A DNA stretch of 32,076 nt from a virus, in IMG/VR virus record IMGVR_UViG_3300027917_002975, positions 1 to 32,076 of that record. The stretch is one strand, 5' to 3'. Position numbers and translations under genes: made by a program. Shown here piece after piece: positions 1 to 20,801 of the stretch (its first letter is position 1; the number at the start of each line of letters is the position of its first letter). The notes beneath the pieces were generated by a model, which was not told the DNA's origin, did not search any database, and saw nothing but the letters and a program-made list of their open reading frames with translations.

Positions 1-241
1 AATCTGAAGCTCCAATCAAACGGGGGGTGAATTTGCCCCTATTGTGCTCGTCTGGAAAGGTCTGGTACAACAACACGTCGGGGCCTTTGGGCACACCACT
101 TTCAATAAAATCATTTAACGATATTCTTGCCACTCGCACATCGTAATCATCACTCTCATCCATCAAAAATAATACTTTTGATATATAGTGGCGGTTTGCA
201 CCTGTGTGAAAGGTGTAGCATATGTTGATTTTATCATCCAC
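1..241 (-). CDS. Partial gene of unknown function, N-terminal 80 residues
   Basis: An open frame starts at a GTG at 241-239 and runs off the left edge of the window without a stop. It overlaps the 3' end of the radical SAM gene by 8 bases, in line with the tight packing of this phage. The visible protein begins VDDKINICYTFHTGANRHYI and continues with DVLLYQTFPDE near residue 60. The opening beta strand, followed by a stretch that reads 'DVLLYQTF', resembles the N-terminal half of GT-B glycosyltransferases, and the neighbours include two glycosyltransferases. That assignment is only a guess from context and style. A competing ATG at 237 leads to a stop after 24 codons and was not chosen. Confidence 0.6.
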   Translation of the reverse strand, partial: MDDKINICYTFHTGANRHYISKVLFLMDESDDYDVRVARISLNDFIESGVPKGPDVLLYQTFPDEHNRGKFTPRLIGASD

Positions 242-2072: not shown

Positions 2073-2076
2073 TGTA

Positions 2077-2850: not shown

Positions 2851-4115
2851 AGTGCAAGCATCTCTCTCATTATCGGGGCGTAGTATTTTTTGTAAAGGTT
2901 GTCCATATTATAAGTCTGGCGGCAGAAGGTCTTAGTTTTTAAAGCCTCATTTTGGTTCATACGGCCAAAAATAATCTTGGCCAGATCGAGCCAGTAGTTC
3001 GGCCCCGGCACCTCAAAGTTCATGTGGTGAGAACCGAAATCAAAATACTTGGCCTTGTTACCACTGACTTCAACCTGCATCTGCAACGATTTATTGAGCA
3101 CCATAAAACAACCCGACAGGGCTGCTTCTGGCACCACCAGCCCGAAAGACTCTTCACGGGTGGGGAATATAAAAAGGTTAGAGAGTAAGAAGAGTTCTCT
3201 AATCATGCGTTTCGAGATACCCACCTCGTATTCCTTACCAAAATCTGAGGTGAAAATGTAGTCCACACCCAGTGTGAGGCCCACTTTCTCACCCTCGGCC
3301 TTGTATTTTTCGATATTTTCTTTGTGCTGCCTAGTGGTAGCCCATTGATTTGCCACTACAAGGCACACAGAGTTCGATAAATCGTTTTTCAGGTGCCCGA
3401 ATATATACGATACCTCTTTTACCCTTTTCGCCACAAGACGGTCAACTGAGGCCGGTAGAATCTGAACGATATCGGCCTGCATAACATTGGGGTATTCATC
3501 GATGAATTTATTGGTGTCTTCACAGAAATCAAACCAAGTACGAGGGTCTTTAAAATGGGGTATTGTGCGAACGTCGTCATCCCACCCCTGATACTGCTCG
3601 GCCACACGGGTGCGCTCGGTTTCATTGGGGTAGACGATCTTGTGCATCTTACCCCACGTTTTGATTTCCCACCAATCAGAGCGCACAGAGGGCACAGAGT
3701 GAATCCAATGCAGCCAACGGGTATTAGGTAAACGGCGACCAATCTCTTTAAGGGCAATGCCGTAGGGCAGGTTCCACCCAGTAAAAATAAAATCATGGGT
3801 GAAAATTACATTGATGTCTTTTAGTTCCTCAGACAAGACCTCAACAGTTTTTTCGATTACCTGCTGATGGTCTGGGGTAATGTTTTGTGCGCTGCGGTAG
3901 TCTTTGAGATGGGCAAAAGGCATCTTTTTGTGAATGATGGCTCCCTCTGGTGAAGGATACTTATGGTCAGTATAATTTTCATTTACAAAAAGATGGGGTT
4001 CGTGATTGTAACGGGCCAGCATTTTGACCTGATCGGCTACAATACCCGTCAAGGAATAGCCGGGTATAAACTCTTGAAACGTGGTTAAGATTGCAACTTT
4101 TTTGTCTTCAAGCAT
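2847..4115 (-). CDS. Glycosyltransferase, GT4-like GT-B fold
   Basis: The C-terminal half carries the nucleotide-sugar binding stretch LFIFPTREESFGLVVPEAAL (about residues 314-333). This includes the two glutamates eight apart (E322 and E330) of the EX7E signature seen in GT4 retaining glycosyltransferases. The N-terminus begins with the beta strand KVAILTTF followed by SLTGIVADQVKML, the usual acceptor-domain start of GT-B enzymes. Length (422) is normal for one soluble GT-B protein. The ATG at 4115 has AAGGA nine bases upstream and opens the sugar-modification group. Phage glycosyltransferases of this class are known to modify either host surface polymers or virion proteins; the sequence alone does not choose between them. 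Confidence 0.85.
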   Translation of the reverse strand: MLEDKKVAILTTFQEFIPGYSLTGIVADQVKMLARYNHEPHLFVNENYTDHKYPSPEGAIIHKKMPFAHLKDYRSAQNITPDHQQVIEKTVEVLSEELKDINVIFTHDFIFTGWNLPYGIALKEIGRRLPNTRWLHWIHSVPSVRSDWWEIKTWGKMHKIVYPNETERTRVAEQYQGWDDDVRTIPHFKDPRTWFDFCEDTNKFIDEYPNVMQADIVQILPASVDRLVAKRVKEVSYIFGHLKNDLSNSVCLVVANQWATTRQHKENIEKYKAEGEKVGLTLGVDYIFTSDFGKEYEVGISKRMIRELFLLSNLFIFPTREESFGLVVPEAALSGCFMVLNKSLQMQVEVSGNKAKYFDFGSHHMNFEVPGPNYWLDLAKIIFGRMNQNEALKTKTFCRQTYNMDNLYKKYYAPIMREMLAL

Positions 4116-5656: not shown

Positions 5657-8600
5657 CTAAGAAGTGGTCGTTGTCGTTGTAGAAGTGGTAGTGGTTGTCG
5701 TGAATCCCTCATCATCGCAACCCGTACCCAGCCTTATATAATCGAAGTATGCCTGCACATTAGCGGTGGCCCAAGTGTCTATTCTCATTCTTAATCTACC
5801 ATCACCATCACTGTTGTTATCTTGCAGTGACACATTAGAATCAATAAGTGCCTCATTTAGATAAACATCAACTACAGCGGTGGTTATGTCTGCAAGGTTT
5901 CTGCAATCAAATGTCCATTCATCCCATTGATCAAGTGTTACCTCATCTGTGCCCACTTCTATCCACGATGAACCATTGTAAATAAACAGGCCGTCAGAAC
6001 GCCAACGGGCATTAAGAGTCCACTTATCAGAGTCATCATCTATGCCGGTAAACCTGACAAAGACACCCTCAATTTCACCCGCTGTGGAACCCATCGTATC
6101 AATATATAATTTAACCGTTACCACACAGCGGTCGGCTGTGTAAGAAGCCAAATCCCTGTATCTTTCAGCCTGACCATTGTTATTTGCCTGATACAGACTC
6201 AAGGTGTGCAGACCATCAAATAGAGCTTGCTGAGAAACACCGGTACCACTGTCGTTATCTACCCAGCCAGCAACCGACTTAAAATGGTCTTCAAAAATAT
6301 CACCATTAGAATAAGCACACGGTGGCCCAGTTGTTACGGTGGTAACCGTACTACTACTACTACTGGTTGTAGAAGCTGTTGATGTAGTTGAAGCCGAACT
6401 TGATGTTGAGGCCGTCGAACTGGTGGAACTCGTGGTAGATGCTGTTGAGCTTGTGGTATTTGTGGAACTTGTCGAAGCTGTGGATGATGTCGTCGAGTAG
6501 GTGGAACCCGTCGTGGTAACCGTTGATGATGTCTTGGTAGACGTAGTTGTGCTGTGAGTGGTTGAGGCCGTCGAACTGGTGGAACTCGTGGTAGAACCTG
6601 TCGTGGTAGTCGAGGCCGTTGAAGCTGTCGAGCTTGTGGTTGAAACTGTTGAAGTGGTAGTCGAAGTTGTTTGGGTGACAGATGGTGCCTGCGACCACAA
6701 CTCAATATTTGATACGTGGAACACTGAATCATCACCAGCACTCACCTCTAACTGAATCGACTCAATACCAATACGGTTTGCCCAGTTAGGCGTTATCTCA
6801 GTGCCAGACGTATAAGCAGAAGTCTGGTAGACAATCCCATTTGTGGCTCGAATCGTCAATGAGGGTGTGCCACCGTGATCGTGTGTAATTTTAATCTTTG
6901 CAGGCCGTATGGCATTGGCCCATGTACCGATGGCAACGATTTTACCACCGTTCGCATTGGCGTGAATATTAAAATTCCAGCGAGTATTGCCAGAATCCCA
7001 AGAAGAAGAGGTCACAGCATTTAACTGATCAGGTTCCCATCTGGTGTTGTCAAGGTAAACATCATATTCACCTGTTACCGTAAGAGATGATTGTCTGGCT
7101 TCAATATACTTTTTACCACTCGATGCCCTGTTTATCTCGACAACCCTGAATTTAGTCGTGTCGCTGACAACCAGACCAAGAAATTCTTTATCTAATTCAC
7201 TACCGTTATCAAAAGTAAAATCAATGATGTCGCCTTTTTGGTGCGCTTCTAAAAAATCACCGCCCTCAAAATCAATGACCAATCTCGGCAAAGCGTTGTC
7301 TTCGAGCAACCACTCTAAAAGCGATTGGGCCTGAGCCTCGCTTCTAATAAAATCAAGGTCGACAACATCACCCTCAAGTACCCCGTAAACACCTTGGCTT
7401 GCAGCGTCATCAACCTGTAAAACCGACTTTTCGTCCTCTATGTCACTACGACCCGCTTGAACCCATTCCTTATTATAAGAGGCAGTATAACGATTTACAA
7501 TCTCGGCCCTTGGGGTGTATCTAACTTTAACAGAGTGAGCATCAATTCTGGCCTGCTCAATTGTATTATTGGCAGTGTCGTCATCGGCTAAAAAAATAAG
7601 CTGGTGATCGCCCTCGTCAAAGAACTGTATACTATGACATTGAAAGGCCATCTTAGAAAGAAATTCCATAACATTTGGCCTATCAAGCAAAACTGGAGCG
7701 AGCACTATATTGTTAAGGTTAAAATTGCTCGCAGCATCGGTATAAGTGCTGCCAAAATCAGAGATTAACCAACCACAATGATTCACTAAAAAGTGTTTAA
7801 AAATATAATCGGGTCGTTCGATTAAAGCTCCAGTAGTTCCATAATTGCCAGACGCATCGGCTTGATACCCTTTAACATCGGCACACACCCTGCCACCAAT
7901 CACAGTATCAGCGGTACTGTTACCAGACAACGTGACAGTGCCCTGCTTTTCGGCTGCGCCGGTCTTTGAAACGTTAGTTAATGAATTATCGGGTGCTAAT
8001 CTAATCACAACCCATACTTCAGTCACCAACGCATTTCCATAAGGGTTGCCACCCCCCCTTTCCACTGTTAGAGTAGACTGCCTTATATCATTCATTGAAA
8101 AATCACTTACATCGAGCATCGCTGCGCCAGAGGGGTGTACTTTAAACCCAGTGCTGTCCCACGTTTTAGAATAATTAACCATTTCACCACCAGCACTAAG
8201 AGAGAACGTAAGCTTTACATTGCAATTGGCATCAAGAAAGTAAATATGTGCCCACATCTCCATGCTATACATATTCCCACCTGTGGGTAGATTCATTATC
8301 TTTCTACATTCCACATAAGCACCCTGTGAAGCAAGATAGGTAGATTCAGACAAAGAGCCATCACACACCCTCTCTGGATAGAACACCGTACCACCAGTTT
8401 GCCAAGGTATATCATACCACACCCCGACCTCAGGTGTGCCCCCATGCCTATGTGAAGGGTCATCAAGGTCAATGGTATCCAAAACCTCTATAGTGTCTTC
8501 AATCTCTAAATTTACCTGTTTCTCAATAGTAGGCAACGTATTAAATTGAATGACGGCTTTGCTGGGGTAAGAAGGGTGTTCATCGCCGGTCTGACCTGTG

Positions 8601-9523
8601 TATGCCGTGTAATTGCCCGACTGCAATATAAATTCACCAGAGCTACGGTGTTCCACATATACATTATCAATCGATTTTACAGCATGGCCAATGACATAGA
8701 TATATGCAGCCTGCACTTCAGCGACAATCGCCCCTTTTTCATGGGCAACAGCGGTAGTGCCGTTCGCCCCTCTAGTACAACCATTAAGCAAGTTGCCGGA
8801 ACGGTATGAATAGGTGATCTGCTCGCTGTCAATCTGTACCGTGCCCCCCGCCAGTGGGAAGCCCGCCGCATCAGAAACAGATAAACTGGTCACCGAACTA
8901 TTTATATCACCAGAGAGGGTATCAAGAGTGCCCGTGTCAACACCAATAAAAGGCACCTTTTTCGCATTGCCATAAACGATGGGCAGCATCTTGCCAACAT
9001 CATCCGGTTCAGCACCGGGGTAAGTGTCAAGCTCACAAAAAACAGAAGTGAATTTTTTATTTAGCGTGACATCTGAGGAAGTATAGTAAAGGCGCACGGT
9101 TTCACGTTCCATCTCGATGTCTTCTATTTCAGAATCAACGAGAAGAATCTTGTCTGCCGTAGCACTTGCACCTTCATATATTTTATAGATTTTTATATTT
9201 TGGTAAAAAACGGTATTCGATGAGAAAAGAGCCGTAAATGAACTGGCCCCGCCGACAGGCACGGTATTGTCAACCAGAATGGAACCTGTGCTTGGTTCAG
9301 GCACTTTACCACTCGTCTTAACATTACCGCTTTTGATATCATCACACTCAAGTACAATAGGTTCCCATACTTGGGAGTCAAAAACATTACGGGTGCTGCC
9401 CGAACCAAATATCCTATCACAAAAATAAAGTGTAATGCCACTTAAATAAATCTCAAAAAGAAGTACAGGGCTTACGTGTGGGCTATCGACTTTTGTATCA
9501 TTGAAAGAAGAAAGAGTTTTCAT
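5657..9523 (-). CDS. Tail hub / central fibre protein with mucin-like linker and polyThr tail
   Basis: This 1288-residue protein follows the distal tail gene and is most likely the baseplate hub or central tail fibre. Residues about 1-195 resemble the hub-type start of long-tailed siphophages. Residues 196-270 hold a common phage tail module ending NGCTRGANGTTAVAHEKGA. Residues 300-940 are beta-rich with an internal helical hub-like part. Residues about 945-1067 are almost only Thr, Ser and Ala with a few Val and Gly. A Tyr/Trp-rich beta domain follows (about 1070-1265) that looks like a jelly-roll carbohydrate-binding or lectin-like domain, suited to host recognition. The protein ends GFTTTTTTSTTTTTTS. 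It overlaps the upstream gene by ATGA. Confidence 0.8.
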   Translation of the reverse strand: MKTLSSFNDTKVDSPHVSPVLLFEIYLSGITLYFCDRIFGSGSTRNVFDSQVWEPIVLECDDIKSGNVKTSGKVPEPSTGSILVDNTVPVGGASSFTALFSSNTVFYQNIKIYKIYEGASATADKILLVDSEIEDIEMERETVRLYYTSSDVTLNKKFTSVFCELDTYPGAEPDDVGKMLPIVYGNAKKVPFIGVDTGTLDTLSGDINSSVTSLSVSDAAGFPLAGGTVQIDSEQITYSYRSGNLLNGCTRGANGTTAVAHEKGAIVAEVQAAYIYVIGHAVKSIDNVYVEHRSSGEFILQSGNYTAYTGQTGDEHPSYPSKAVIQFNTLPTIEKQVNLEIEDTIEVLDTIDLDDPSHRHGGTPEVGVWYDIPWQTGGTVFYPERVCDGSLSESTYLASQGAYVECRKIMNLPTGGNMYSMEMWAHIYFLDANCNVKLTFSLSAGGEMVNYSKTWDSTGFKVHPSGAAMLDVSDFSMNDIRQSTLTVERGGGNPYGNALVTEVWVVIRLAPDNSLTNVSKTGAAEKQGTVTLSGNSTADTVIGGRVCADVKGYQADASGNYGTTGALIERPDYIFKHFLVNHCGWLISDFGSTYTDAASNFNLNNIVLAPVLLDRPNVMEFLSKMAFQCHSIQFFDEGDHQLIFLADDDTANNTIEQARIDAHSVKVRYTPRAEIVNRYTASYNKEWVQAGRSDIEDEKSVLQVDDAASQGVYGVLEGDVVDLDFIRSEAQAQSLLEWLLEDNALPRLVIDFEGGDFLEAHQKGDIIDFTFDNGSELDKEFLGLVVSDTTKFRVVEINRASSGKKYIEARQSSLTVTGEYDVYLDNTRWEPDQLNAVTSSSWDSGNTRWNFNIHANANGGKIVAIGTWANAIRPAKIKITHDHGGTPSLTIRATNGIVYQTSAYTSGTEITPNWANRIGIESIQLEVSAGDDSVFHVSNIELWSQAPSVTQTTSTTTSTVSTTSSTASTASTTTTGSTTSSTSSTASTTHSTTTSTKTSSTVTTTGSTYSTTSSTASTSSTNTTSSTASTTSSTSSTASTSSSASTTSTASTTSSSSSTVTTVTTGPPCAYSNGDIFEDHFKSVAGWVDNDSGTGVSQQALFDGLHTLSLYQANNNGQAERYRDLASYTADRCVVTVKLYIDTMGSTAGEIEGVFVRFTGIDDDSDKWTLNARWRSDGLFIYNGSSWIEVGTDEVTLDQWDEWTFDCRNLADITTAVVDVYLNEALIDSNVSLQDNNSDGDGRLRMRIDTWATANVQAYFDYIRLGTGCDDEGFTTTTTTSTTTTTTS
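6325..6685 (-). repeat. Degenerate Thr/Ser/Ala codon repeat inside the hub gene
   Basis: About 360 bases encode roughly 120 residues of short irregular units such as STTSSTAST. Thr and Ser codons are mixed in kind, so the DNA is degenerate although the peptide is repetitive. Two near-copies of an (AG)(TS)-rich block are seen at about 6409-6441 and 6566-6598, which suggests growth by internal duplication. The protein segment would be extended, flexible and rich in hydroxyl groups. Confidence 0.8.
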
Positions 9524-10257
9524 AGTATTTCAACGACTTCGACATTTCTTGAAACAAGACCCACCTCGTCTGTCAAATGAGTTTCTCTTGAAACCGATTG
9601 AAACCGAGCGAGCCAATAGTTGTCTTCATGGTCTTTAAAATAAAACGGTCGGCTGTAGTTTTCCATATACCCCACAGCGGTTCTAAAATTCAAAGCCGCC
9701 GTGTTATCTAAAACAACGGTATACTCTTTTGATTTTCTTTCTTCACCAAGTTTTACCGATCTCTCAAGGCCTCCAAGCATTTCTTGCCAGATAACATTGT
9801 CGATGTCTGCACTTTCAGGTTCCTCACCAAAATCAACGTTGAAAGCATAACCCCTCGACATAAAGATTTCAGTGCATCGTGGGCTTGTGGCACTGATAAC
9901 CCTAACCCGCCAATATTGGTGTGATAACGGTGAAGCAAGAGTCTTTATAATCTGCCCACTGCCTGAAACAAAAGATGAAACAGCGGCATACCAATCGGAA
10001 TCGTTGTCAGAATATTCCCAATGAACAGTGAGGCCGTTAAACGTGTGAGTTTCAATAGCTAAAAAATCGACGGGTAAAATAGTTGAGCCTTGGTCTGTGT
10101 GAAAAAAGTAAGTAGAAGCGGCGGCAGTCTTCTTCCAATAAAAATCGATAGAAAAATCATAAAGCCTTGCTTCAGGGTAACCTGAATCTGGGTCACCGGT
10201 AACCGTTGTGGTGCCCTCAGCCAGTATATTATACGGGTATATTTTAATCTGGCCCAT
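9520..10257 (-). CDS. Distal-tail-like protein
   Basis: A 245-residue protein encoded directly after the tape measure gene, the usual place for the distal tail protein that joins tube to hub. The first half (about residues 20-140) is beta-rich, with a discoidin-like run (TFNGLTVHWEYSDNDSDW, then HQYWRVRVISATSP). The second half has RSVKLGEERKSKEYTVVLDNT and ends in a beta pattern SRNVEVVEIL, as in proteins that stack at the tail tip. It shares one base with the end of the tape measure gene and four with the hub start. The family call rests on position and general shape rather than on a signature motif. Confidence 0.65.
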   Translation of the reverse strand: MGQIKIYPYNILAEGTTTVTGDPDSGYPEARLYDFSIDFYWKKTAAASTYFFHTDQGSTILPVDFLAIETHTFNGLTVHWEYSDNDSDWYAAVSSFVSGSGQIIKTLASPLSHQYWRVRVISATSPRCTEIFMSRGYAFNVDFGEEPESADIDNVIWQEMLGGLERSVKLGEERKSKEYTVVLDNTAALNFRTAVGYMENYSRPFYFKDHEDNYWLARFQSVSRETHLTDEVGLVSRNVEVVEIL

Positions 10258-13200
10258 TAGCCTAACCTCACCCCCAAATCTTCAAGTGCTCGTTTTACAT
10301 CAATCGCAACCTGACGGGCAGCTTTTCTATCACCTGTCATAAAACGAGGTGCTATAGTTATGTTAAGATTAAGACCGCCTGATTTTCTTTCTACAGGACC
10401 GCCTGTTTGCATTTTGACCGGTGCTGACAGAGCAACGGGCGTTGAAACAGCGTTAGTGGCAACTGCTACAGCTTGTGGTTGCAAGGTGGGCATTTTCATT
10501 GAATTAACCATTTCCATAAAACGGTCGCCATACCTTCTGACAGCTTCTTTTCGAATTACCCACTCACCGGGTTCCAGAAGCGCCCTAACCTTATCACCGC
10601 CACCATAGCCTGCAATACGCTGGCCAATGCTCATCGCTTTGCCAACCCAGCCGCCTGTCTTCCTTGCAATAAAAGACATGGTGTTTTTCAAACGGTCAGC
10701 GGTTGATTTGACCACACCCCCTATCTCGAATCGTTCAGGTGTTTCGATGATCTTGCCGCCTAACTTTTTCTCAGTGTCAGCACCCTCTGCCGCTGATTCC
10801 TTACCAGATTCAGAAGATCCAGACTTTTTCACTTTAATATTTAAAGTAACCGTTTTACTTTGGATTGACTCCCACTCGGTCTTCAACTCTGAAACGATAC
10901 CAAAAGTCTGTTGAATTTTCGCCATTGCCTCTTCGGTCTGAAGTACAAGCTTTTTACGGCTGAGTTCATCGTAGGTCTTGGCAAATTCTTGAGTAGCTGT
11001 GTTAAGTTCATTAATCTGAGACTGAGCACTCTGCATCGTTTCTTCTTGCTGCTTTTTGGTGGCCGCTGCCCTATTTTGTATCTCAGAATAAATATTGGTC
11101 AAAATATTGCTGGCCTGAGTCTGAGTAGATGTAAGGGTTTGTATCGTTCTACCGTACTCATCTTGTACAACTCTGGGCAGTTCCGCTGCCTTGTCGATGG
11201 CCTCACCATAAAGACCTTTTGATTCCTCAAAGCTTTTTCGTCGGGCCTGATCTATTAAGGCGTAAATTGCCCTCAAATCATTGGCATATTTAGCTTCTTC
11301 ATTTACCTCACCCTCACGCCCAGCAGACCTTATCTTGGTCATCGCATCAACCGCTTTTTCACCCAGAGCCTCACTTATTTTTCGGGTTTTCTCGATAGTC
11401 TTCTCTGCGTCTTTGATACGCTTTTCAAGCTCACTTTCGATCTCTTTGGTGAGCTTTTTCTGGACACCGACCATTTCTTTTATAAGGGTTTCTTCACGTT
11501 CCTTACGAAGACGGTTTTGTTCCTCTTCGATACCTCTAAGTTCCTCACCCAGTTTTTCACGTTCAGCTTTAATTTCTTCATTCATTCGTTTCTCAATTTC
11601 AACGACACCCTCACCTCTTTTTTTAGCTTCGTGAAGCTCCTCTTCATACCCTTTAGAAATAATGTCAATACGTTCATCACTACGTTCCTTAAGCTTTTCA
11701 GTAAATTCACCCAGCATCTCAAGTTCAAGATCATAACGTTTTTCAACGGCAACGGTTTCACCCTCAACATCTTCAACAAATTCAGCGAGGTTCTTCGCTC
11801 GTATCCGGGCAATTGCCGCATACTGTTTTTCAGTGGTTATACCAATTTCGTCTGCTTTTTTCTTAAAGGCAGCGATCTCTTTATCCATAGACTCAAGAGC
11901 TTTGGCAAAATCAACCTGTCTTACAGCATTTAATTGATCAAAAGTATCTTTAAAAATACTGGGTAAATCATCTAAAGTATCACGCCAAGCTTCACGAACA
12001 TCTTTTAACTGAAATTCTTGCTGCTTCCACAAACTGGTAATACGTGTTATAATTGCCTCAGAAGCACCTAATCTTCGCAATTCACCTAATATTTCTGAAA
12101 CAGGTCTTGCAGGGTCAAGTTCACGCATGGTATTTGCAATTTCAACAAAGGTGTTTTCAAGTTCCTCATTAATCGATTTTAATTCTTTTGATTTTTTACC
12201 CGCCTCGTCTATGCTTTTGTTCAAATCCTCAAAAGCCTTTTTAACAGGGTCGATACCTGTTACCAAACGCAGCAATGTGCGTGGTACGATGGTGGCAAAC
12301 AGTATCCACTGTTTTGCAAATTTCCCAACGATGTCTACCAGCCAAGCAAAGAGTTTGCCAACCTTTTCGAGAACGAAACTTAATAACCCCAAAACTTTCG
12401 CTTTAAGACCCACACGCCACGTAGCCTCTTCAATTCTTTTATTGTAAAGACCAACCAGTTCAATATTATGTTCAAGGTTTTTTTGAAGTTCCTCTCTATA
12501 AGCACTTTGAACCGCTTTTGTGTTTTTGTCTAAAGCATCGGTCGATTCAGAAACGACCCCGCTTAACTGTGGGTACGCTGCTACAAGCCTCTGTATAGTT
12601 GAAGCGTGTTCATTGGATATATCTTCCCCCTGACGTTGTTTTTCAGCCAGAGTCGTTAAAGCAGCCTTATATAAATTAAGGTTGTCAGCAGCAGTGCGGG
12701 CTTTTTGTTGAACTTTTACTGTGGCATCTACAGCCCTTTGTGTCTGACTTGCATAAAGTTTGATCGCCACTATAACAGCAGCCAAAGCAGCAGCAATAGC
12801 AATGATAGGACCAAGGGTAGTAGCCCCAGCAATACCCAATGAACTAAACGCAGCGGTCAAACCTTTAACACCAGCACCAGCACCCATAAAAGCTGCTCTC
12901 ATGCCTACAAGAACAGTTGATACAGCACCAAACATCCCTATTAGCTTGAACAGCCCAACACCTAGAAGCTGTATGATTTTACCAGTAGTGGTTAGGGCTA
13001 TGGTAAAAGTGGTAAATTGTATAATGACCTGACCAAGCTTTGATCTCGCCAATTTTTCAATAGCAATGGTAAGGGCTTTTAGTACATCTAAAAACGCTTT
13101 CATCACATTGATAAGCCCCGCTTCACCAAAAGCTACTGCAATCAATTTAGCACGGTCAGCCAAGTTTTTAAGTTTGACCCAAAGACCTTCAGCCTGAGTC

Positions 13201-14333
13201 GCAGCCATATCTGCGGCAGTGCCGACTTCCAAAACCCTGTCAAGCATTTTGGTATATTCACCACTTGTAAAAGCACGGGCAAGTATAGCAACCGCTTGAG
13301 CACCACGAAGCCCAAAAAGACGGTAAGCTTTGGTCATATTAACGGTTTTCTTTTCGGTATCCACCAAGATGGCAGACATATTTTCCATTGCTTTTCGAAA
13401 ACCAACTACAGAGGGGTTAACTTTATCTAACTGTATGCCCTGAGCCTCAAACTCTTGTCTAAGATTACGATTGGGGGCAAGTAGTCGGGCTAAGACCTGT
13501 CTCAAACCCGTACCAATAGTTGATGCTCTCAAACCATTATTGGCAAGTACCATCATACTTGCAGCGGTTTGTTCCAAAGAAAGCCCTGCCTGAGAAGCAG
13601 CGGCACCAACAAAGTTAAAGGCAATTCTGAGTTTATCAATGGTAAGTTTTGATCGGTTGATAGCATTAGCCATAACATCAGCAACTCTGGTCGATTCAAT
13701 GGCTTGCAGCCCAAAGGCTCTTACAGTAGTGGTAAGCAAGTCGGTTGTCAGCTTCATGTCTGACAAAGTACCGGTGGCAAGATCAGCAGTGGCCTGCATC
13801 GCCTGCATTGCTTCGGTGGCAGTAAAACCAGCCTGCCCCAAAAGCACCATACCCTCAGCAACTTCACCTGTGGAAAACTTAGTTGTGCGGGCCACATCTT
13901 TTATGACCTCACCCATACCAGAAACTTCAGCATTAGTGGCACGGGTGATCGCCTGCAAGTTTTTCAAAGCCTGATCGTAGGTAACAATCTCTGATGCACC
14001 GGCTCTCAGAGCTTTCGTAATAGAAAACAAAACGGTGGCCGCAACCCCATAAGAGGCCGTGACCTTCATAGCACGATTAATACGGTTCCAAACGCCCTCG
14101 GTGTTCCGCATCTGTTTGCCAACATCATCGACTCTTTTGCCAAGGTCACGCATTCTACGGCCAGTTTGTTCGGCAGTGGTGCCTAACTGCCGCATGGCAG
14201 TATTCATCTGGGTGAAACTACGAGTGCGTCTTGCCATATTGTCGACAGCTTGACGCATCCGGGTGATACCACGTAGAAACTGATTTATATCAGATGTAAA
14301 AATCGTACCTAAATTTAAGGATCTATCAGCCAC
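10257..14333 (-). CDS. Tail tape measure protein
   Basis: At 1358 residues this is the longest gene of the tail block and sits after the chaperone pair, as expected. Residues about 110-330 match the TP901-type tape measure core (TKFSTGEVAEGMVLLGQAGF, then NRSKLTIDKLRIAFNFVGAA). Hydrophobic stretches at about 435-525 and 640-680 are likely membrane-inserting segments used during DNA entry. Residues about 800-1000 are strongly charged and coiled-coil-like. Using the general rule of about 0.15 nm per residue, the tail would be near 200 nm, an estimate only. The start is a GTG at 14333 with GGAGGT ten bases upstream, overlapping the end of the chaperone -1 frame by 8 bases. Confidence 0.93.
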   Translation of the reverse strand: MADRSLNLGTIFTSDINQFLRGITRMRQAVDNMARRTRSFTQMNTAMRQLGTTAEQTGRRMRDLGKRVDDVGKQMRNTEGVWNRINRAMKVTASYGVAATVLFSITKALRAGASEIVTYDQALKNLQAITRATNAEVSGMGEVIKDVARTTKFSTGEVAEGMVLLGQAGFTATEAMQAMQATADLATGTLSDMKLTTDLLTTTVRAFGLQAIESTRVADVMANAINRSKLTIDKLRIAFNFVGAAASQAGLSLEQTAASMMVLANNGLRASTIGTGLRQVLARLLAPNRNLRQEFEAQGIQLDKVNPSVVGFRKAMENMSAILVDTEKKTVNMTKAYRLFGLRGAQAVAILARAFTSGEYTKMLDRVLEVGTAADMAATQAEGLWVKLKNLADRAKLIAVAFGEAGLINVMKAFLDVLKALTIAIEKLARSKLGQVIIQFTTFTIALTTTGKIIQLLGVGLFKLIGMFGAVSTVLVGMRAAFMGAGAGVKGLTAAFSSLGIAGATTLGPIIAIAAALAAVIVAIKLYASQTQRAVDATVKVQQKARTAADNLNLYKAALTTLAEKQRQGEDISNEHASTIQRLVAAYPQLSGVVSESTDALDKNTKAVQSAYREELQKNLEHNIELVGLYNKRIEEATWRVGLKAKVLGLLSFVLEKVGKLFAWLVDIVGKFAKQWILFATIVPRTLLRLVTGIDPVKKAFEDLNKSIDEAGKKSKELKSINEELENTFVEIANTMRELDPARPVSEILGELRRLGASEAIITRITSLWKQQEFQLKDVREAWRDTLDDLPSIFKDTFDQLNAVRQVDFAKALESMDKEIAAFKKKADEIGITTEKQYAAIARIRAKNLAEFVEDVEGETVAVEKRYDLELEMLGEFTEKLKERSDERIDIISKGYEEELHEAKKRGEGVVEIEKRMNEEIKAEREKLGEELRGIEEEQNRLRKEREETLIKEMVGVQKKLTKEIESELEKRIKDAEKTIEKTRKISEALGEKAVDAMTKIRSAGREGEVNEEAKYANDLRAIYALIDQARRKSFEESKGLYGEAIDKAAELPRVVQDEYGRTIQTLTSTQTQASNILTNIYSEIQNRAAATKKQQEETMQSAQSQINELNTATQEFAKTYDELSRKKLVLQTEEAMAKIQQTFGIVSELKTEWESIQSKTVTLNIKVKKSGSSESGKESAAEGADTEKKLGGKIIETPERFEIGGVVKSTADRLKNTMSFIARKTGGWVGKAMSIGQRIAGYGGGDKVRALLEPGEWVIRKEAVRRYGDRFMEMVNSMKMPTLQPQAVAVATNAVSTPVALSAPVKMQTGGPVERKSGGLNLNITIAPRFMTGDRKAARQVAIDVKRALEDLGVRLG

Positions 14334-14694
14334 CTATCTTGCCACCTCCAAGCTTAGTCATAAAATAAGCCTTCATTTCTTGGGTGAGTTTGTGCCGTTC
14401 TTCCATCGGCATGTCCTCATAATCTTTTGGGTCTTTAAATAAAAATTTGTCTTCGGGTTTTTTCTCTTTGATCTCAGCACCGGCTACCTTGGCCTGAAAC
14501 TTCAACCGTTCGGCCTCACGTTTCTGAGAGTGCTCAAACAAAATGAGCAACTGTTCAAAGGTTACCCCGCCTTCTTTGAAGCTTTTACTGAAGAAGTCTT
14601 CGAGCCTGTAGCCCCCGTAGACTTCGCAGACTGCGGTGATTGCCTCTTCAAGAGTTGTTCTGTCGCCGGTTCTTCCCCGAAGAGGCTCTTCACG
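14326..14694 (-). CDS. Tail assembly chaperone, -1 frame extension (gpT-like part)
   Basis: This frame has no stop from the slippery site at 14700-14694 to the stop at 14326-14328, and it encodes 122 residues. It includes EEAITAVCEVYGGYRLEDFF and FEQLLILFEHSQKREAERL, which look like true protein, unlike the low-complexity end of the zero frame over the same bases. Joined to residues 1-121 of the upstream chaperone it would give a protein of about 243 residues, the arrangement known for lambda G-GT and many long-tailed phages, where the longer form recruits tube protein to the tape measure. An independent TTG start at 14550 exists but would lack the conserved-looking first part. Confidence 0.75.
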   Translation of the reverse strand, partial: REEPLRGRTGDRTTLEEAITAVCEVYGGYRLEDFFSKSFKEGGVTFEQLLILFEHSQKREAERLKFQAKVAGAEIKEKKPEDKFLFKDPKDYEDMPMEERHKLTQEMKAYFMTKLGGGKIGG

Positions 14695-15056
14695 TTTTTT
14701 AACAATTTTGCAAAATTGACCTCATATACGATTTTACCGATCTCAAGAGCCTGATCGTTGGTAATGTGTTCAAGCAGGTTGATATCTTCATCGGTATCGG
14801 TGATTTTGTCAATTATGCGGTCGATGTTCTCATTAATAAATTCCATAACAAACCCACCGACCTCAGATAAAATCTGCATATCAGACTTTTTAGTATCGGC
14901 AACGATCTCATTATACTTTTGCAAAGCACTTATAATAAGGTCGCTTAAGTCAAGCTGGTCTTTTAGAGAAAGCGGGTAGACTTTAATCTTCCTCAAGGTG
15001 CGAACACCAATAGTGACTGTTCGCACCTGAGGATTGAGTTTAATTTCACTGGCCAT
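14562..15056 (-). CDS. Tail assembly chaperone, zero-frame product (gpG-like)
   Basis: A 164-residue protein encoded between the tail tube and the tape measure, the fixed place for the tail assembly chaperone. The N-terminal part (KLNPQVRTVTIGVRTLRKIKV, then helical residues 30-120) resembles chaperones of the lambda G type. After the slippery site at residue 119-121 the sequence turns into a Lys/Ser/Thr-rich tail with no helical character (ending SSVKASKKAG), typical of the part that is not conserved when ribosomes fail to shift. GGAGGC lies six bases before the ATG. Confidence 0.82.
   Translation of the reverse strand: MASEIKLNPQVRTVTIGVRTLRKIKVYPLSLKDQLDLSDLIISALQKYNEIVADTKKSDMQILSEVGGFVMEFINENIDRIIDKITDTDEDINLLEHITNDQALEIGKIVYEVNFAKLLKNVKSLFGEEPATEQLLKRQSPQSAKSTGATGSKTSSVKASKKAG
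14694..14700 (-). promoter_or_regulatory. Slippery heptamer A_AAA_AAC for programmed -1 frameshift
   Basis: In the zero frame the codons read TTA AAA AAC (residues 119-121 of the chaperone), giving the canonical X_XXY_YYZ heptamer A_AAA_AAC. A one-base slip back enters a frame that stays open for 122 codons to 14326. Tail chaperone genes between tube and tape measure commonly use such a site. Confidence 0.75.
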
Positions 15057-15084
15057 TTTAATGCCTCCATAAAGTTAGTTAAGG

Positions 15085-15732
15085 TTAAGCAGTTGTGGTT
15101 GTCGTGGTAGAGGTAGTTGTCCAAGAAGTACCAGTACCATCGTCCCATCGAATTACACCAAGAGGTTTGTCATCCCATGCAACGTTGCCGGGGTTATTAG
15201 CATCAACAACCTCACTGTCAGCCCTCTTCGCTTCAAGCACAAGGGCAATGGCAGCGGGTTCCTCAGGGGCAAATTCCATCTCAATAGCTGAGGTAGCCTG
15301 CGCTCTGGGGAATATGATAACCATTCGGTTACTACCATCAGGGAAAGTATAAACTGCCTCAACACGCAAATACACAGGTGTTGCCAGTGTACCAAGAGGC
15401 ACAGCACCGGCGTGAGACTGACTATACGCAGACGGGCTTAAACCCAAAGCAATAGCAATGTTTTTGGGTGTCACCTCTTTAAAGGCACACTCAATAGATG
15501 CCATTTCACGCAGGGGATAGGTAGCATCTTCCAGCATGGGGAAGCCCGACTCTAATTTAAAATATTCACCACCACCGTTAAACTTGGTATTTGCCATCGC
15601 ACCCAGCGAATCAGTCGCAGCGAGTGCGGGGTTCTGATTTGTAATGTGGCCGGAATAAGCTGCCACACGAATCTGGGCCAAACCAAGAGCAACAGCACTG
15701 GTGTCTCTGGTAACAGGACCTGTACGAGCCAT
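15085..15732 (-). CDS. Major tail (tube) protein with polyThr C-terminus
   Basis: A 215-residue beta-rich protein placed directly upstream of the tail chaperones, hence the best candidate for the tube subunit. It has the small N-terminal arm, a central region (YFKLESGFPMLEDATYPLRE) and a later VYLRVEAVYTFPDGSNRMVI stretch that would form the hexamer-building sheet. It ends SWTTTSTTTTTTA, one of four such tails in the window. Perfect AAGGAGGTGA lies before the ATG, predicting high expression; that ribosome site also encodes the last residues (KEVI) of the upstream gene. Confidence 0.82.
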   Translation of the reverse strand: MARTGPVTRDTSAVALGLAQIRVAAYSGHITNQNPALAATDSLGAMANTKFNGGGEYFKLESGFPMLEDATYPLREMASIECAFKEVTPKNIAIALGLSPSAYSQSHAGAVPLGTLATPVYLRVEAVYTFPDGSNRMVIIFPRAQATSAIEMEFAPEEPAAIALVLEAKRADSEVVDANNPGNVAWDDKPLGVIRWDDGTGTSWTTTSTTTTTTA

Positions 15733-15733
15733 A

Positions 15734-16042
15734 CTATATCACCTCCTTATTTTTAGAATCGTGGCCAGTTTTTTCCTGCGATTGGTTTCCTTCAGGTTGT
15801 GAACCCGGAAAAAAATTTATCGTATTCCAATGGTCGGGGTGTTTCACCCGACAATCAAATCGAAAGCACTGCATCTGTATTGAGCCATGCACCTTGATAT
15901 CAACAACAGGGTACACATTTTCATCACCCACAGTTTTTTCACCAAACCGAAATCGAAGCAGACCGTTTGGCATACGCTCTATCAATTTTTTACCACAAAT
16001 CGTGCAATAGTGAAAAATTCGTCTTTTCATTGTGCCCCTCAT
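15734..16042 (-). CDS. Small protein with N-terminal zinc-binding Cys pairs
   Basis: The 102-residue protein contains CTICGKK (residues 13-19) and a second pair around MQCFRFDC (57-64), spaced as two halves of a zinc ribbon, plus a disordered Gln/Lys/Asp-rich C-terminus. The first possible ATG (16042) overlaps the tail terminator stop by ATGA; a second ATG at 16030 has GAGGGG four bases upstream and is also plausible. It sits between tail terminator and tube genes. No function recognised. Confidence 0.7.
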   Translation of the reverse strand: MRGTMKRRIFHYCTICGKKLIERMPNGLLRFRFGEKTVGDENVYPVVDIKVHGSIQMQCFRFDCRVKHPDHWNTINFFPGSQPEGNQSQEKTGHDSKNKEVI

Positions 16043-16512
16043 ATCTGTGTGGGTATTCTGCTCAACACAGTCAGTATTTTATATTTGGTTTCATCTGGAC
16101 CATCAAGGTTGCCAGACTGCATAACATCAGTAATTAAAATGGTGCCAATAGACGTCCACAAAGAAGAGTCTTGGTTTGGGTTGCTGCGATACAATGTTAT
16201 ACGCCTAAGCCCATCTGTTTTATCGGCATCAAAATGCAAGGCCATTATCTGATCTCTTAAATTTGAGAGCTTAAAGTACTCATTGTCACGGCGGGTACAC
16301 AAAAAGACCTCCCAATGAACCACAGACATATGGCCGATTGTAAGCGGGCCAAAATTTACAGCTATCCACTTTTCAGTGTTTTTATTGGTTAAATCTGGGT
16401 CAGACAGCCCCTTATCAATTGTGACCGGCACACTCGATGGCCTACTGTCAATCAGGTATTTGTGATAACTATCTCGTATATTGGCTTCTTTTGCAGTATC
16501 GTCAAAAGCCAT
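16039..16512 (-). CDS. Probable tail terminator protein
   Basis: A 157-residue protein in the position where tail terminators are found, two genes before the tube. Features that fit are a mixed alpha/beta pattern, VVHWEVFLCTRRDNEYF in the middle (a long beta hairpin followed by a helix in this family) and a C-terminal strand KYKILTVLSRI. Its job would be to cap the growing tube and join it to the head. The ATG at 16512 has GGGGAG upstream. The assignment depends mainly on order and size. Confidence 0.6.
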   Translation of the reverse strand: MAFDDTAKEANIRDSYHKYLIDSRPSSVPVTIDKGLSDPDLTNKNTEKWIAVNFGPLTIGHMSVVHWEVFLCTRRDNEYFKLSNLRDQIMALHFDADKTDGLRRITLYRSNPNQDSSLWTSIGTILITDVMQSGNLDGPDETKYKILTVLSRIPTQI

Positions 16513-16516
16513 AAAA

Positions 16517-16897
16517 TCATCTCCCCACTATTCGGCCTATAAAATCAGACCATCTGCTTTGCATTTTTAGATTTAAAGGATCAGTATCAAGACCATTTAC
16601 AATGATATTGCGAATCTCACGGCACTCATTGTTTTTTCTGCGAATCTTGCCCTTACCCAGAAGACCACCACGCTTCTCATACAAAAGCTGCAAATGCTGT
16701 GAACGGTTCACCCAATAGATAAAAACGTATTTTAGCATTAAAGTGTCAGGGTCGTTGTTTTCAATGCGCTCCCTAATTTCACGGTTCATATCAACACTGA
16801 ACTTGCCCCACTCCACAGACAACCGTGATAGCTTTTTGCTGCTACATATCAAGAAATTAGCATCTATTTCATTTACATAATTGATTGGTGTTTTCAT
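16517..16897 (-). CDS. Conserved-position protein of unknown function in the head-tail joining block
   Basis: A 126-residue, mainly helical basic protein (MKTPINYVNEIDANFLICSS at the start, GGLLGKGKIRRKNN in the middle). No family was recognised. The start is the ATG at 16897, which overlaps the upstream stop by ATGA and has GGAG nine bases before it; a GTG two codons earlier is too close to that site. By position between the gp10-like and tail terminator genes it may be a connector or completion protein. Confidence 0.65.
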   Translation of the reverse strand: MKTPINYVNEIDANFLICSSKKLSRLSVEWGKFSVDMNREIRERIENNDPDTLMLKYVFIYWVNRSQHLQLLYEKRGGLLGKGKIRRKNNECREIRNIIVNGLDTDPLNLKMQSRWSDFIGRIVGR

Positions 16898-17418
16898 CGC
16901 CACACACTCCTAAATCGGTTGTGATATTTGGCACCCAAAACAGGCCACAGCCTTTCTGCATAATCATAGGCAGTGGGCATAAAAAGCGGTCGGGGCGGTT
17001 GTGTCTTTGTGCCCTCTTCGGTGTAAAGGGCATATTGAATTATTCTGATGTTGCCCCTTGGCTTATTTGACCAGCCAATCTTTGGAGCATACATATTCGG
17101 GTCAACACCACCTGCCCACCCATCTTTATTTCTATAACCCTTGGCACGAAAGACCCTGATCGCTCTAATAAGCTCACCGGTCATCTGCCAGAATTTTGTG
17201 GGGTAGCCATGATTAGCTTTCCATTCAGCATAGCTCGCTGAAAGCCTGTGCCACCCATAACGCTGATGAGAAAGATTCTGCAAGACCAAATTACGGTAAG
17301 CAACGGCTCCTTCAAACGGCAGTTTCTTTTCGGCTAATTGAGCCTGTTTCGCAAGGTTTTCAACCGCACGTAACCACCGCTTAAGATCGTCGGCCTTAAA
17401 ATAAAAGCCGACTTTCAT
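16894..17418 (-). CDS. Tail completion / neck protein, HK97 gp10-like
   Basis: The 174-residue protein follows the HK97 gp10 pattern: helical N-terminus (residues 1-60), then a middle region with SYAEWKANHGYPTKFWQMTGELIRAI, and near the C-terminus YALYTEEGTKTQPPRPLFMP, equivalent to the family's 'YA...E.GT...PARPF..P' signature. Proteins of this family join the tail to the head. The ATG at 17418 overlaps the preceding stop by ATGA, with AAGGTG upstream; a GTG three codons earlier is less likely. Confidence 0.8.
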   Translation of the reverse strand: MKVGFYFKADDLKRWLRAVENLAKQAQLAEKKLPFEGAVAYRNLVLQNLSHQRYGWHRLSASYAEWKANHGYPTKFWQMTGELIRAIRVFRAKGYRNKDGWAGGVDPNMYAPKIGWSNKPRGNIRIIQYALYTEEGTKTQPPRPLFMPTAYDYAERLWPVLGAKYHNRFRSVWR

Positions 17419-17570
17419 ATGACACACCTTGGATCAACCTGCTGCATCTCACCTTGAGGCAGCAGGGTTATCTTGTACCCACAAAAAGGGCACGGTGTCT
17501 CATCGTACTCGTCACGCAATCTGATCTCTTTTTTACAGTTAGGGCAATCTATGATGATCGTGATAGACAT
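17415..17570 (-). CDS. Small zinc-ribbon protein (51 residues)
   Basis: A short frame with GGAGGTG just upstream of its ATG encodes MSITIIIDCPNCKKEIRLRD and then PCPFCGYK. The two C-x2-C pairs (residues 9-12 and 27-30) form a minimal zinc ribbon. The stop overlaps the next start by ATGA, which supports it as a real gene. Short zinc ribbons are common between phage structural genes; the function is unknown. Confidence 0.8.
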   Translation of the reverse strand: MSITIIIDCPNCKKEIRLRDEYDETPCPFCGYKITLLPQGEMQQVDPRCVI

Positions 17571-17616
17571 TAGCACCTCCCCGTGCTAAATAAGTTGAAC
17601 CCATGAAAAAGAACCC

Positions 17617-18279
17617 TTAAGCTGTCGTCGTAGTCGTGGTTGAAGTTGTCGTGGTGGTGGTGGTAGTCCAATCTCTGGTATCTTCACCCACAGTGGCTAC
17701 TTCGACATTTTCAAAACGCCGTCTGATGACCTCTTCTACCCTGAAGTATTCCCCTGTACTCAGCCATACCCTATCAAGCGGCTGAATACCAATACCTGAA
17801 GGCACGTAAAGCTCATTTTGTTCGAGGCCCAGCATCCCAAGCTGTTCATCAGTTTCAAGATCATTACCAAACAAAGCAGAGGTTAAAAGCAATTTAACAC
17901 CCGATTTCACAACAGCCCATACGGTGCGGGTGCGGTAGTTTTCTCTAACCTCAGTTGGCCGGTAGATCGTAAGTGTTACGTTTGTTTTATACAAAACCAC
18001 ATCATATTGATAAACTTCATTTTCAAAAAGAAGTGGCGTAAAATTCATTATTATGTAACGGTCACCGGTCGTATTAAATTCAACAAAATCACCGGCAACC
18101 GCTGCGCTGTCGTATGAGAATTTACCCTCTAAGAAAAACTCACGAATAAAAGGTTTTGTGACCTGAGCATTCGCTTTTGTGTAGATATATTCACCGGTAA
18201 CATTACCGGCATCCCTAACAATGGTGATGCTAAGACCGACTTCTTCAACAGCTTCTTTTATATCAGGGCCAATTGTCAT
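17617..18279 (-). CDS. Head-completion/head-tail adaptor protein with polyThr C-terminus
   Basis: A 220-residue beta-rich protein encoded between the connector and the gp10-like gene. Its place fits a head closure or stopper protein. Middle segments (RYIIMNFTPLLFENEVYQYDV; RTRTVWAVVKSGVKLLLTS) look like a beta barrel, and the late YVPSGIGIQPLDRVWLSTGEYFRV reads like an SH3-type strand set. It ends DWTTTTTTTTSTTTTTTA, coded with all four Thr codons. The start is the ATG at 18279, which overlaps the peptidase stop by ATGA; the TTG at 18291 is an alternative. Confidence 0.65.
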   Translation of the reverse strand: MTIGPDIKEAVEEVGLSITIVRDAGNVTGEYIYTKANAQVTKPFIREFFLEGKFSYDSAAVAGDFVEFNTTGDRYIIMNFTPLLFENEVYQYDVVLYKTNVTLTIYRPTEVRENYRTRTVWAVVKSGVKLLLTSALFGNDLETDEQLGMLGLEQNELYVPSGIGIQPLDRVWLSTGEYFRVEEVIRRRFENVEVATVGEDTRDWTTTTTTTTSTTTTTTA

Positions 18280-18647
18280 GGGTATATCCAAAAAACTTCT
18301 TGGGGGTTATCTTGTCTCATACCAACATGAATAAAATTAGGACCAACACCTATTCGGGTAAAACCAGCATCACGCAAAGCATCATACATTAAAAAACGGC
18401 CCGAACTGGTAACACAAACAATATCAGCCCCTTCACCTGTAAGATGATCAGATGAGGGCTTGCCACCAACATCCCTATTGTGGTGGTAGCAACGACAACC
18501 TGAATTTATAATGAAAACCAGATTTACACGGCTACGGGCATACTGAAGTTTATCCACAAATGTGTATTTTATATTGTTCAGGCCACAACCACACTTGCAA
18601 TCAAATTCTGAAAGTTCGAAATTTGCCCATCGGTTAGTCATCATCAT
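18276..18647 (-). CDS. M15-family-like peptidase (endolysin-type peptidase domain)
   Basis: The 123-residue protein matches the compact Peptidase_M15_3 type that cuts peptidoglycan cross-links. SSDHLTGEGADI carries the zinc ligands H68 and D75, and GPNFIHVGM supplies H107. Before these, SGCRCYHHNRDVGGKPSSDH follows the family's 'SgyR....N..vgG...S.H' layout. No signal peptide is seen. It is unusual that it lies among head-tail connector genes and not in a lysis cassette. It could still be the endolysin, or be packaged in the particle and used on entry. Three ATGs in a row (18647, 18644, 18641) compete as start. Confidence 0.83.
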   Translation of the reverse strand: MMMTNRWANFELSEFDCKCGCGLNNIKYTFVDKLQYARSRVNLVFIINSGCRCYHHNRDVGGKPSSDHLTGEGADIVCVTSSGRFLMYDALRDAGFTRIGVGPNFIHVGMRQDNPQEVFWIYP

Positions 18648-19092
18648 TCGGGTTTATCTCAACATCGTTGTCGTTTGTATAAGTGGAATCTTGACCGATA
18701 AGATCATATTGAAACCCAGCATGAACAACCGTGCCAAAAAGTTCCCTCGCAGCAACACCGGCCAGTAGATGTGCATTGGCCTCGAAGAAGTCATTCCACG
18801 CACGGTCTTCATCTCTGATGATCACACGGTAATGTTCAAAGCGTTGTTGTAAATTTATACCTTCAAACTTGAATTTGTGAGCAGCCTCGGTCATCAGGTA
18901 ATAAAATAGGTGACGTTTGGCACGGCGCACAAACCAGTTTTCTTTATCGTTGTTATCCACAGGCAAAGACCAGCCTGTTTCACGCTCAGTGGTATCCACA
19001 GCGTTTTTGAAATCTTGAGCATTTAATTTTGAGGCGAGGCTTTTAAATTCCTGCTTCAAGGTGATTATCGCTTGATCTGTTGTAAGGCTCAC
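18634..19092 (-). CDS. Probable head-tail connector (adaptor) protein
   Basis: A 152-residue, mainly helical protein with an acidic C-terminus (NDNDVEINPNDDD). By position after the capsid block it is likely the adaptor that binds the portal. No strong motif was seen. The start is a GTG at 19092 that overlaps the previous stop by GTGA. Confidence 0.6.
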   Translation of the reverse strand: MSLTTDQAIITLKQEFKSLASKLNAQDFKNAVDTTERETGWSLPVDNNDKENWFVRRAKRHLFYYLMTEAAHKFKFEGINLQQRFEHYRVIIRDEDRAWNDFFEANAHLLAGVAARELFGTVVHAGFQYDLIGQDSTYTNDNDVEINPNDDD

Positions 19093-19433
19093 GGTTTCTT
19101 TCGCCTCCTAATAAGTTTTACCCTTCTAATTAATTTGGGTTTAGGCTCTTCAACCTCCGGCTTGTCACGGTTACCGACTTCAGATTTGCCTACTGAAGTA
19201 GCGGTGGTTTTAAAATGTGACATGTCAGGTGTTTTAACCTGCATCTCAGAAGCGTAATCGAAAATTTTTTGGGGTTTTTCGTCACCCATAGGCTTGATAA
19301 AAGGGTTGCCTGCATTCATCTCGTCGATTATCTCTTGAGGAAGGGGCGGTTTCAACACCCCCTCCTCATAGATAGTCGCATCGACTCCAGAACCGAATTT
19401 AATGGTTCGTATTAATCGAACTGCACTGTTCAT
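19089..19433 (-). CDS. Small protein with repeated basic KLIRR motif
   Basis: The 114-residue protein follows the capsid gene. Its C-terminus, KPKLIRRVKLIRRRKKP, repeats a basic peptide that also occurs in the first residues of the large terminase. A related VRLIRTIKF is at residues 5-13. The central part is Pro- and Asp-rich and probably flexible. GGGAGGC lies seven bases before the ATG. No family recognised; an accessory head protein is the simplest reading. Confidence 0.7.
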   Translation of the reverse strand: MNSAVRLIRTIKFGSGVDATIYEEGVLKPPLPQEIIDEMNAGNPFIKPMGDEKPQKIFDYASEMQVKTPDMSHFKTTATSVGKSEVGNRDKPEVEEPKPKLIRRVKLIRRRKKP

Positions 19434-19457
19434 AATGATTGCCTCCCTTAGACCGCA

Positions 19458-20801
19458 TTAAGCAGTCGTAGTGGTGGTTGTTGAACTCGATGACGTAGTT
19501 GTGGTAGTCGTCGTCGAGGTAAGAGCCTTGCCAGCAACCGGATGAATCGCCACAACGTCTAAGACATACAGAGCGTCACGGTTCTTCAATACGGGCAAAC
19601 CCTTGTCTTGTACCCGAATCCAAACACCATCGGGATCCCATTCTTCATGACGGTCAGTTTTCTGGCCGTAATGACGGTCAAGCCCAAACGGGGCTTGTTT
19701 GTATTCAGCAATTGGCTGACCATCGACGCTGGTGGCCATCATTAGGAACTTATCGTTCGGAATGAAATACCGGGCCATTGTCACATAGTCTTCACCGGCC
19801 TTGTAACTCGCAGCCGGAGGTGCCGAGAGTTGAACACGGTTGGTTTCGCTTTCAATCTGCAAAATGTAAGTATCTTCATACGTACCCGCAGAGACATCCC
19901 AAAAGCGAATCTTCTCACCGGCAACAAAATCATGGTTGTCATCGACCGTAATCCAAGTGGTGGAACCACCTGTAACCGCAGCCGTCAACCAAGCTCTGAC
20001 CTCATACATCTCATCATAAATGATGAGATTATCGATATTGAGCAGAGCAGCCAGCACAGTCGGGTTTACCCCGATTAAGTTGTGCAAATTGCCAGAGAAT
20101 GGATTACCCACACCAACACCAAACTGACTACGGTACAGCAATTGACGGATTGTGGTGTCATTACCCAAATACTTGAGCACATAGCTGTTACACATAGCAA
20201 CGTTTACATCACCACCGCAGTCCTCCTTGATCTTGCGTTTTCCATCTTGAATATCACTTAAGATATTCTTGCTGCCACCGTCGTTCCAGTTAGCAGCCGA
20301 AGCCAGCGTCACACGGTGGTCCGAAGGAACACCGTAATTCACTGTGGCCTTGTAGCCACCCTTGACATCGTAGTTGAAACCGTTGTCAAAGAGCATCTTA
20401 GCAAACATCCACTCCTTTCGGCGGTTAGACCTATTAGAGAGCATTGACAATTCTTTGGCCAGCTTCTCTTCGGCACTGTGGTATTCGGCAGTGGTGCCGG
20501 GTTTTCTAAGGTTATTGAGGAATTCCTCATCAAAGTACATTTTCTCTTTCCAGAAAGCAGCCTCGGCTCTGTGCTCGGCAATCCCGTGCGGGGCCGTCAC
20601 TTCGGCAGGGGCACCCGGTGGCACAAACGGTGTCATGCCACGCCCACCTCTCTGAGATTCCCAACGAATTGAACTCGACGGTGAGTTGGAAGAAGAAAAC
20701 ATGTTAATAAAATGCAGATTCGGCGGTGTCTGGAAGGTTTGCATAAAACCCTCTAATACCTCTAACCGCAGAATCGGTATATCTGAAGCACCTTTAGGCA
20801 T
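19458..20801 (-). CDS. Major capsid protein, lambda gpE-like, with polyThr tail
   Basis: A 447-residue protein with the gpE-family layout: long N-terminal arm, a middle helix-rich region (about residues 75-140), DVNVAMCNSYVLKYLGND (198-215), and the conserved IYDEMYEVRA followed by YFIPNDKFLMMA. Between these last two motifs (about residues 271-345) there is an extra beta-type domain. The protein ends with a run of Thr and Ser (residues 428-447, closing in STTTTTTA). It has the strongest ribosome site type (AAAGGAGGTGA), as expected for the most abundant virion protein. Its neighbour is the decoration protein gene. Confidence 0.9.
   Translation of the reverse strand: MPKGASDIPILRLEVLEGFMQTFQTPPNLHFINMFSSSNSPSSSIRWESQRGGRGMTPFVPPGAPAEVTAPHGIAEHRAEAAFWKEKMYFDEEFLNNLRKPGTTAEYHSAEEKLAKELSMLSNRSNRRKEWMFAKMLFDNGFNYDVKGGYKATVNYGVPSDHRVTLASAANWNDGGSKNILSDIQDGKRKIKEDCGGDVNVAMCNSYVLKYLGNDTTIRQLLYRSQFGVGVGNPFSGNLHNLIGVNPTVLAALLNIDNLIIYDEMYEVRAWLTAAVTGGSTTWITVDDNHDFVAGEKIRFWDVSAGTYEDTYILQIESETNRVQLSAPPAASYKAGEDYVTMARYFIPNDKFLMMATSVDGQPIAEYKQAPFGLDRHYGQKTDRHEEWDPDGVWIRVQDKGLPVLKNRDALYVLDVVAIHPVAGKALTSTTTTTTTSSSSTTTTTTA

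Follow-up and report, generated by a model that had tools for sequence, protein, structure and literature searches.

Threonine/serine tails on virion proteins and a linked GT4-type glycosyltransferase suggest an O-glycosylation system encoded by environmental phages

Introduction

The window analysed here is a 32-kb IMG/VR virus record (32,076 nucleotides) in which proteins of different particle parts, from the head to the tail tip, finish in nearly the same run of threonine, and the question raised by this locus is what such a common ending is for. An initial annotation had proposed a common job, which could be attachment of sugar, binding of a shared partner, or formation of a hydrophilic coat. 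Genes and features were assigned from the sequence and its open reading frames (ORFs), from domain searches (Pfam, PHROG) and from relatives in IMG/VR. The reading favoured here, to which we give a probability of about three in four, is that the phage encodes an O-glycosylation system in which the Thr/Ser tails serve as acceptor tags on several virion proteins.

The tailed genes of the window

Four virion genes had been described as ending in Ser, six Thr and a final Ala or Ser after further Ser and Thr, and this is borne out on four minus-strand ORFs, whose features are as follows.

19458..20801, minus strand: major capsid protein (HK97-fold family, Phage_cap_E) with C-terminal tail, ending ..TSTTTTTTTSSSSTTTTTTA; Pfam PF03864, 8.4e-32; PHROG 29
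19461..19520, minus strand: capsid tail TSTTTTTTTSSSSTTTTTTA; the capsid of tailless relatives stops just ahead of it
17617..18291, minus strand: conserved protein of the head-tail connector block, with tail, ending ..DWTTTTTTTTSTTTTTTA; orthologues in most relatives
17620..17667, minus strand: connector-block protein tail TTTTTTTTSTTTTTTA; tailless orthologues end ..EDTR
15085..15732, minus strand: tail tube (major tail) protein with tail, ending ..WTTTSTTTTTTA
15088..15120, minus strand: tube tail TTTSTTTTTTA; tailless relatives end ..LGxIxW
5657..9523, minus strand: tail-tip (hub-like) protein, S/T-rich in an internal domain and tailed at the C-terminus, ending ..TTTTTTSTTTTTTS; placed by gene order only
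6347..6670, minus strand: mucin-like stretch rich in S/T inside the hub (residues about 952-1059); similar stretches occur in other carriers of the GT4-like gene described below
5660..5701, minus strand: hub tail TTTTTTSTTTTTTS

A C-terminal S/T tail is absent from the 24 other window proteins that were checked, no internal run of six Thr occurs in the checked window proteins, and 20,000 shuffles of residues within proteins produced zero such endings. The names given to the four proteins fared unevenly. The capsid is solid by its Phage_cap_E match, and the tube assignment draws support from its family, in which 7 of 22 members match phrog_476 (major tail protein). The product of 17617-18291, formerly called a head-completion protein, matched no annotated PHROG family, and a Pfam search of the hub-like protein gave no match. 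A PDB search with the tube and connector families returned no useful match, and the structure prediction for the tube (pLDDT 52) was too poor to use. Of the four tails, that of the hub shows the weakest conservation; the orthologue in G001 has the internal S/T domain but no C-terminal tail. A Peptidase_M15 gene (PF08291, 3e-14) lies at 18276-18647 inside the head-tail block, between connector genes, and at 23927-24977 two short membrane-type proteins, which by eye resemble an ExbB/TolQ-type pair, are encoded between the prohead and portal genes.

Codon usage and selection on the tails

The tail codons are mixed, and synonymous sites vary among the four window tails, with third-base identity mostly 1-2 of 7 (4 of 7 between hub and tube). 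Between relatives, capsid tails have diverged by up to 12 synonymous and 0 amino-acid changes in 17 codons, and the capsid bodies of the same relatives accumulate changes of both kinds. Synonymous-only change indicates that the tail is under selection as protein, which upholds the earlier view that the mixed Thr codons are not a simple DNA repeat and are kept for the protein.

It might be supposed that the tails are neutral low-complexity DNA that arose by slippage or by recent copying between genes, as runs of Thr codons are indeed low-complexity DNA. Recent copying of one DNA segment, which had been named as an observation that would undo the proposal, is not seen, since the tails mostly do not have third bases in common, and the mixed codons and the synonymous-only divergence likewise speak against a neutral origin. 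Identical adjacent Thr codons are also rarer than expected (21.0% versus 25.7%, in 195 distinct tails that are not independent), as if repeats were being avoided at the DNA level. Slippage or copied DNA as the origin of the tails is refuted by these codon data, and a neutral explanation retains hardly any probability.

A divergent GT4-type glycosyltransferase

Downstream of the hub gene and on the same strand lies the gene that we propose as the partner of the tails.

2847..4115, minus strand: divergent GT4-type glycosyltransferase, proposed tail glycosyltransferase

Pfam GT1/GT4 matches to the enzyme are weak and below the gathering score. The EX7E residues E322 and E330, together with K230, are invariant in 42 sequences, and judging by these positions the catalytic residues of the GT4-like enzyme are intact. 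The AlphaFold model has a pLDDT of 94.8, and retaining GT4 enzymes, BshA and MshA among them, head its PDB matches, with E about 1e-13 and whole-chain TM-scores of only 0.3-0.4; the enzyme therefore combines the GT-B fold and the EX7E motif by which retaining GT4 glycosyltransferases are recognized. Within the enzyme family, 37 of 42 members match phrog_2170, a broad phage glycosyltransferase family with no described acceptor. A tblastn search of 50,697 phage records with the window enzyme gave no match, and the sole match in the GTDB genome set is L120 (JAFDAR010000003.1), a contig of a Deltaproteobacteria metagenome-assembled genome that also bears tails, which is possibly a hint of the host or else a misbinned phage.

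Linkage of the enzyme to the tails

A search of IMG/VR with the capsid gave 43 loci. In 11-12 contigs the capsid is tailed, as are the connector-block protein and the tube wherever their genes are complete; the remaining relatives end cleanly, the capsid in ..YILDV, the connector protein in ..EDTR and the tube in ..IxW. In related phages the capsid, connector and tube tails are either all three present or all three absent. The existence of relatives without tails on the same proteins had been expected to count against a common job; it does not, because all three tails are missing together and the GT4-like gene is missing too. Among records of at least 25 kb that were not chosen through the enzyme, window included, 6 of the 7 capsid relatives with tails have the GT4-like gene, against none of the 10 without tails, although the tail state changes only once in the capsid tree, so that co-occurrence within this lineage amounts to one evolutionary event and the records are not independent. 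The single tailed record that lacks the gene (G007) is a fragment, whose end maps, by shared repeats, about 2 kb short of the gene position in the near-identical G006.

A profile scan of IMG/VR yielded 49 GT4-like carriers. Tails lie within about 10 kb of 20 of 46 GT4-like loci, a set that omits the near copy of the window and its two close relatives, versus 0 of 78 loci around genes of glycosyltransferase family 17 (GT17; p 9e-11); the count is 0 of 32 for tailless capsid relatives. Over whole records, S/T runs occur in 28 of 49 GT4-like carriers versus 7 of 50 GT17 carriers (mostly with just one or two Ser-rich matches), and most large GT4-like carriers have several tailed virion proteins. 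S/T tails at the C-termini of virion proteins are, on these counts, a feature of the proposed tail-associated glycosyltransferase group, an exception being G063, which has a distant enzyme (35% identity) yet an untailed major tail protein. Some other carriers show no tails, several of them being fragments apparently without structural genes, and contig fragments can hide absences.

The converse scan, made by the DNA pattern of the tails alone, found 80 loci, comprising 33 real tails and 47 matches without a C-terminal tail that served as controls. Where virion tails are clear and the record reaches at least 25 kb, the GT4-like gene is always present (5/5); records with chance matches do not have it (0/18). 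Three records, G102 and the AT-rich G099 and G109, match the tail pattern without a GT4-like gene; when they are counted as misses, p is still 9e-4. In G099 and G109 (loci L285 and L315; >200 kb, GC about 0.24) the proteins end in TTTTTTT-NAP/HAP repeats, possibly a different use of Thr tails. In the GT17 carrier G175 (L441:2816-3130) a Thr-rich tail occurs together with S/T domains although the GT4-like gene is absent, and another enzyme may be in use there.

These associations bear on the view that the tails are unmodified hydrophilic brushes, which would provide solubility or protect the ends, and that the glycosyltransferase acts elsewhere, such as on the host surface or on DNA. A brush would fit the tails in so far as they are rich in S/T, prone to disorder and unequal in length, and phages do use glycosyltransferases on DNA and host antigens (PMC12619734). 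Nothing in a brush calls for a glycosyltransferase, however, and the GT4-like gene, unlike GT17, accompanies the tails in different virion lineages. The 195 distinct tails, moreover, consist almost entirely of Thr and Ser, mostly with Ala in the last position, and lack the mixture of Glu, Lys, Gly and Pro that would be acceptable in a plain brush. We regard the brush as unlikely, though it is the strongest of the competing explanations.

A second virion lineage

Tails are also found elsewhere, on a major tail protein with an Ig-like domain family (phrog_807), on the head-tail adaptor Ad1 and on a minor tail protein. When relatives of this major tail protein were sought with its tail-free body, 38 of 40 proved to be tailed, and the GT4-like gene is present in 14 of the 16 second-lineage records of at least 30 kb. 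The tailed G140 and G153 lack the gene; both may be fragments. The enzyme tree mixes the two virion lineages in places only, which points to few independent joinings of enzyme and tails.

Accessory glycan genes

The GT4-like gene is followed in the window by candidate accessory genes.

2077..2850, minus strand: glycosyltransferase family 17 (GT17), accessory; Pfam PF04724, 1e-21
1451..1984, minus strand: Methyltransf_24 methyltransferase, accessory glycan enzyme candidate; Pfam PF13578, 4.1e-12
234..1472, minus strand: radical SAM protein, accessory candidate; Pfam PF04055, 7.8e-20; the contig ends just past it

GT17 was rejected as the tail enzyme, since among tailed relatives it is seen only in the near-identical record and elsewhere has no tie to tails. 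In a comparison of gene content, the GT4-like enzyme is the sole family that every one of the 14 tailed contigs has and that three tailless capsid relatives all lack, a result that owes something to most of the tailed contigs having been chosen through the enzyme. The families that next track the tails are GT2 (11/14) and a methyltransferase and two further families (8/14 each), none of which occurs in the tailless relatives. A set of 75 genes near carriers is rich in glycosyltransferase, methyltransferase, acyltransferase, PIG-L and sulfotransferase families.

Gene content also bears on the idea that the tails accept no sugar and instead let the proteins dock to one common partner, such as an assembly chaperone or decoration protein. 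Docking would account for the same ending on proteins of different particle parts and for the conservation of the tail at the amino-acid level. The tails differ, however, in length and S/T order among phages and among proteins, unlike a specific docking motif, and the only family that accompanies them throughout the 14 contigs, a set partly chosen through the enzyme, is the GT4-like glycosyltransferase. Docking is accordingly judged improbable, and more so than the brush. The linkage of the tails with the GT4-like gene singles out sugar attachment among the three jobs first proposed, with the GT4-like enzyme as the partner; as this is genomic linkage, the proposal is favoured rather than fully confirmed.

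Comparison with known systems

The low-complexity Ser/Thr regions of serine-rich repeat adhesins are glycosylated by GtfA, a GT4-family Ser/Thr O-GlcNAc transferase. GtfA serves a bacterial adhesin secretion system, whereas the window enzyme is a phage gene product and would act on short C-terminal tags of virion proteins; GtfA is not among the PDB matches listed for the window enzyme. A literature search on poly-threonine phage tails found nothing relevant.

The closest known case is the virion glycosylation of Che8 and Corndog. In the mycobacteriophages Che8, Corndog and Myrna, the phages' own glycosyltransferases glycosylate the C-termini of the capsid and tail tube, and Che8 gp110 and Corndog gp38 are essential glycosyltransferases (Freeman et al. 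2023, as related in PMC12619734 and PMC12363180). Phage glycosyltransferases and the C-termini of capsid and tube are thus common to both, the window system being known from its genes. Like Che8, which has methyltransferase and GT2 domains among its genes, the window combines glycan-related functions (GT4-like, GT17 and Methyltransf_24, at 1451-4115). Unlike the window proteins, the Che8 capsid ends in ..NKTGS and the tube in ..YSDGS, with no poly-Thr tails, and the tags described here are longer and are borne by three to five proteins, among them those of the connector and the tip. The enzymes also differ, in that Che8 gp108-gp110 are a GT2 plus methyltransferase, a GT2 and a GT25, whereas the window enzyme is GT4-type. 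Profile comparison found no homology to the Che8 glycosyltransferases gp108 and gp110: neither matched the GT4-like profile, and the probability against the essential gp110 was 0.1% for the GT4-like family and 0.2% for the island family A8. As far as its genes tell, the window system is one that would work like the mycobacteriophage case but stands outside it by homology.

Proposed mechanism and significance

Under O-glycosylation as favoured here, the GT4-type enzyme would act late in infection, in the host cytoplasm, moving a sugar from a nucleotide donor onto the Thr/Ser hydroxyls of the tails, and the same enzyme would also glycosylate the S/T-rich stretch of the hub. Neighbouring enzymes would lengthen or methylate the glycan. 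After assembly the tails would face outwards from head, neck, tube and tip, giving a sugar-coated finished particle, and such a coat might provide shielding or solubility or help the particle stick to a surface.

A broader proposal, to which we give even odds, is that this is a portable O-glycosylation system of environmental phages, in which a short Thr/Ser C-terminal tag suffices for any virion protein and is paired with a matching GT4-type enzyme and a swappable island of finishing enzymes. Unrelated virion lineages would have acquired this system, of which no example was found in sequenced phage isolates. Sugar coats made by phages themselves have been shown in few of the phages that we found described. 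If the reading is true, a readable tag with its matching enzyme would make virion glycosylation predictable from metagenomes and would provide a simple tag-plus-enzyme pair, testable in E. coli; it would also show which parts of the tailed particle are likely to bear sugar.
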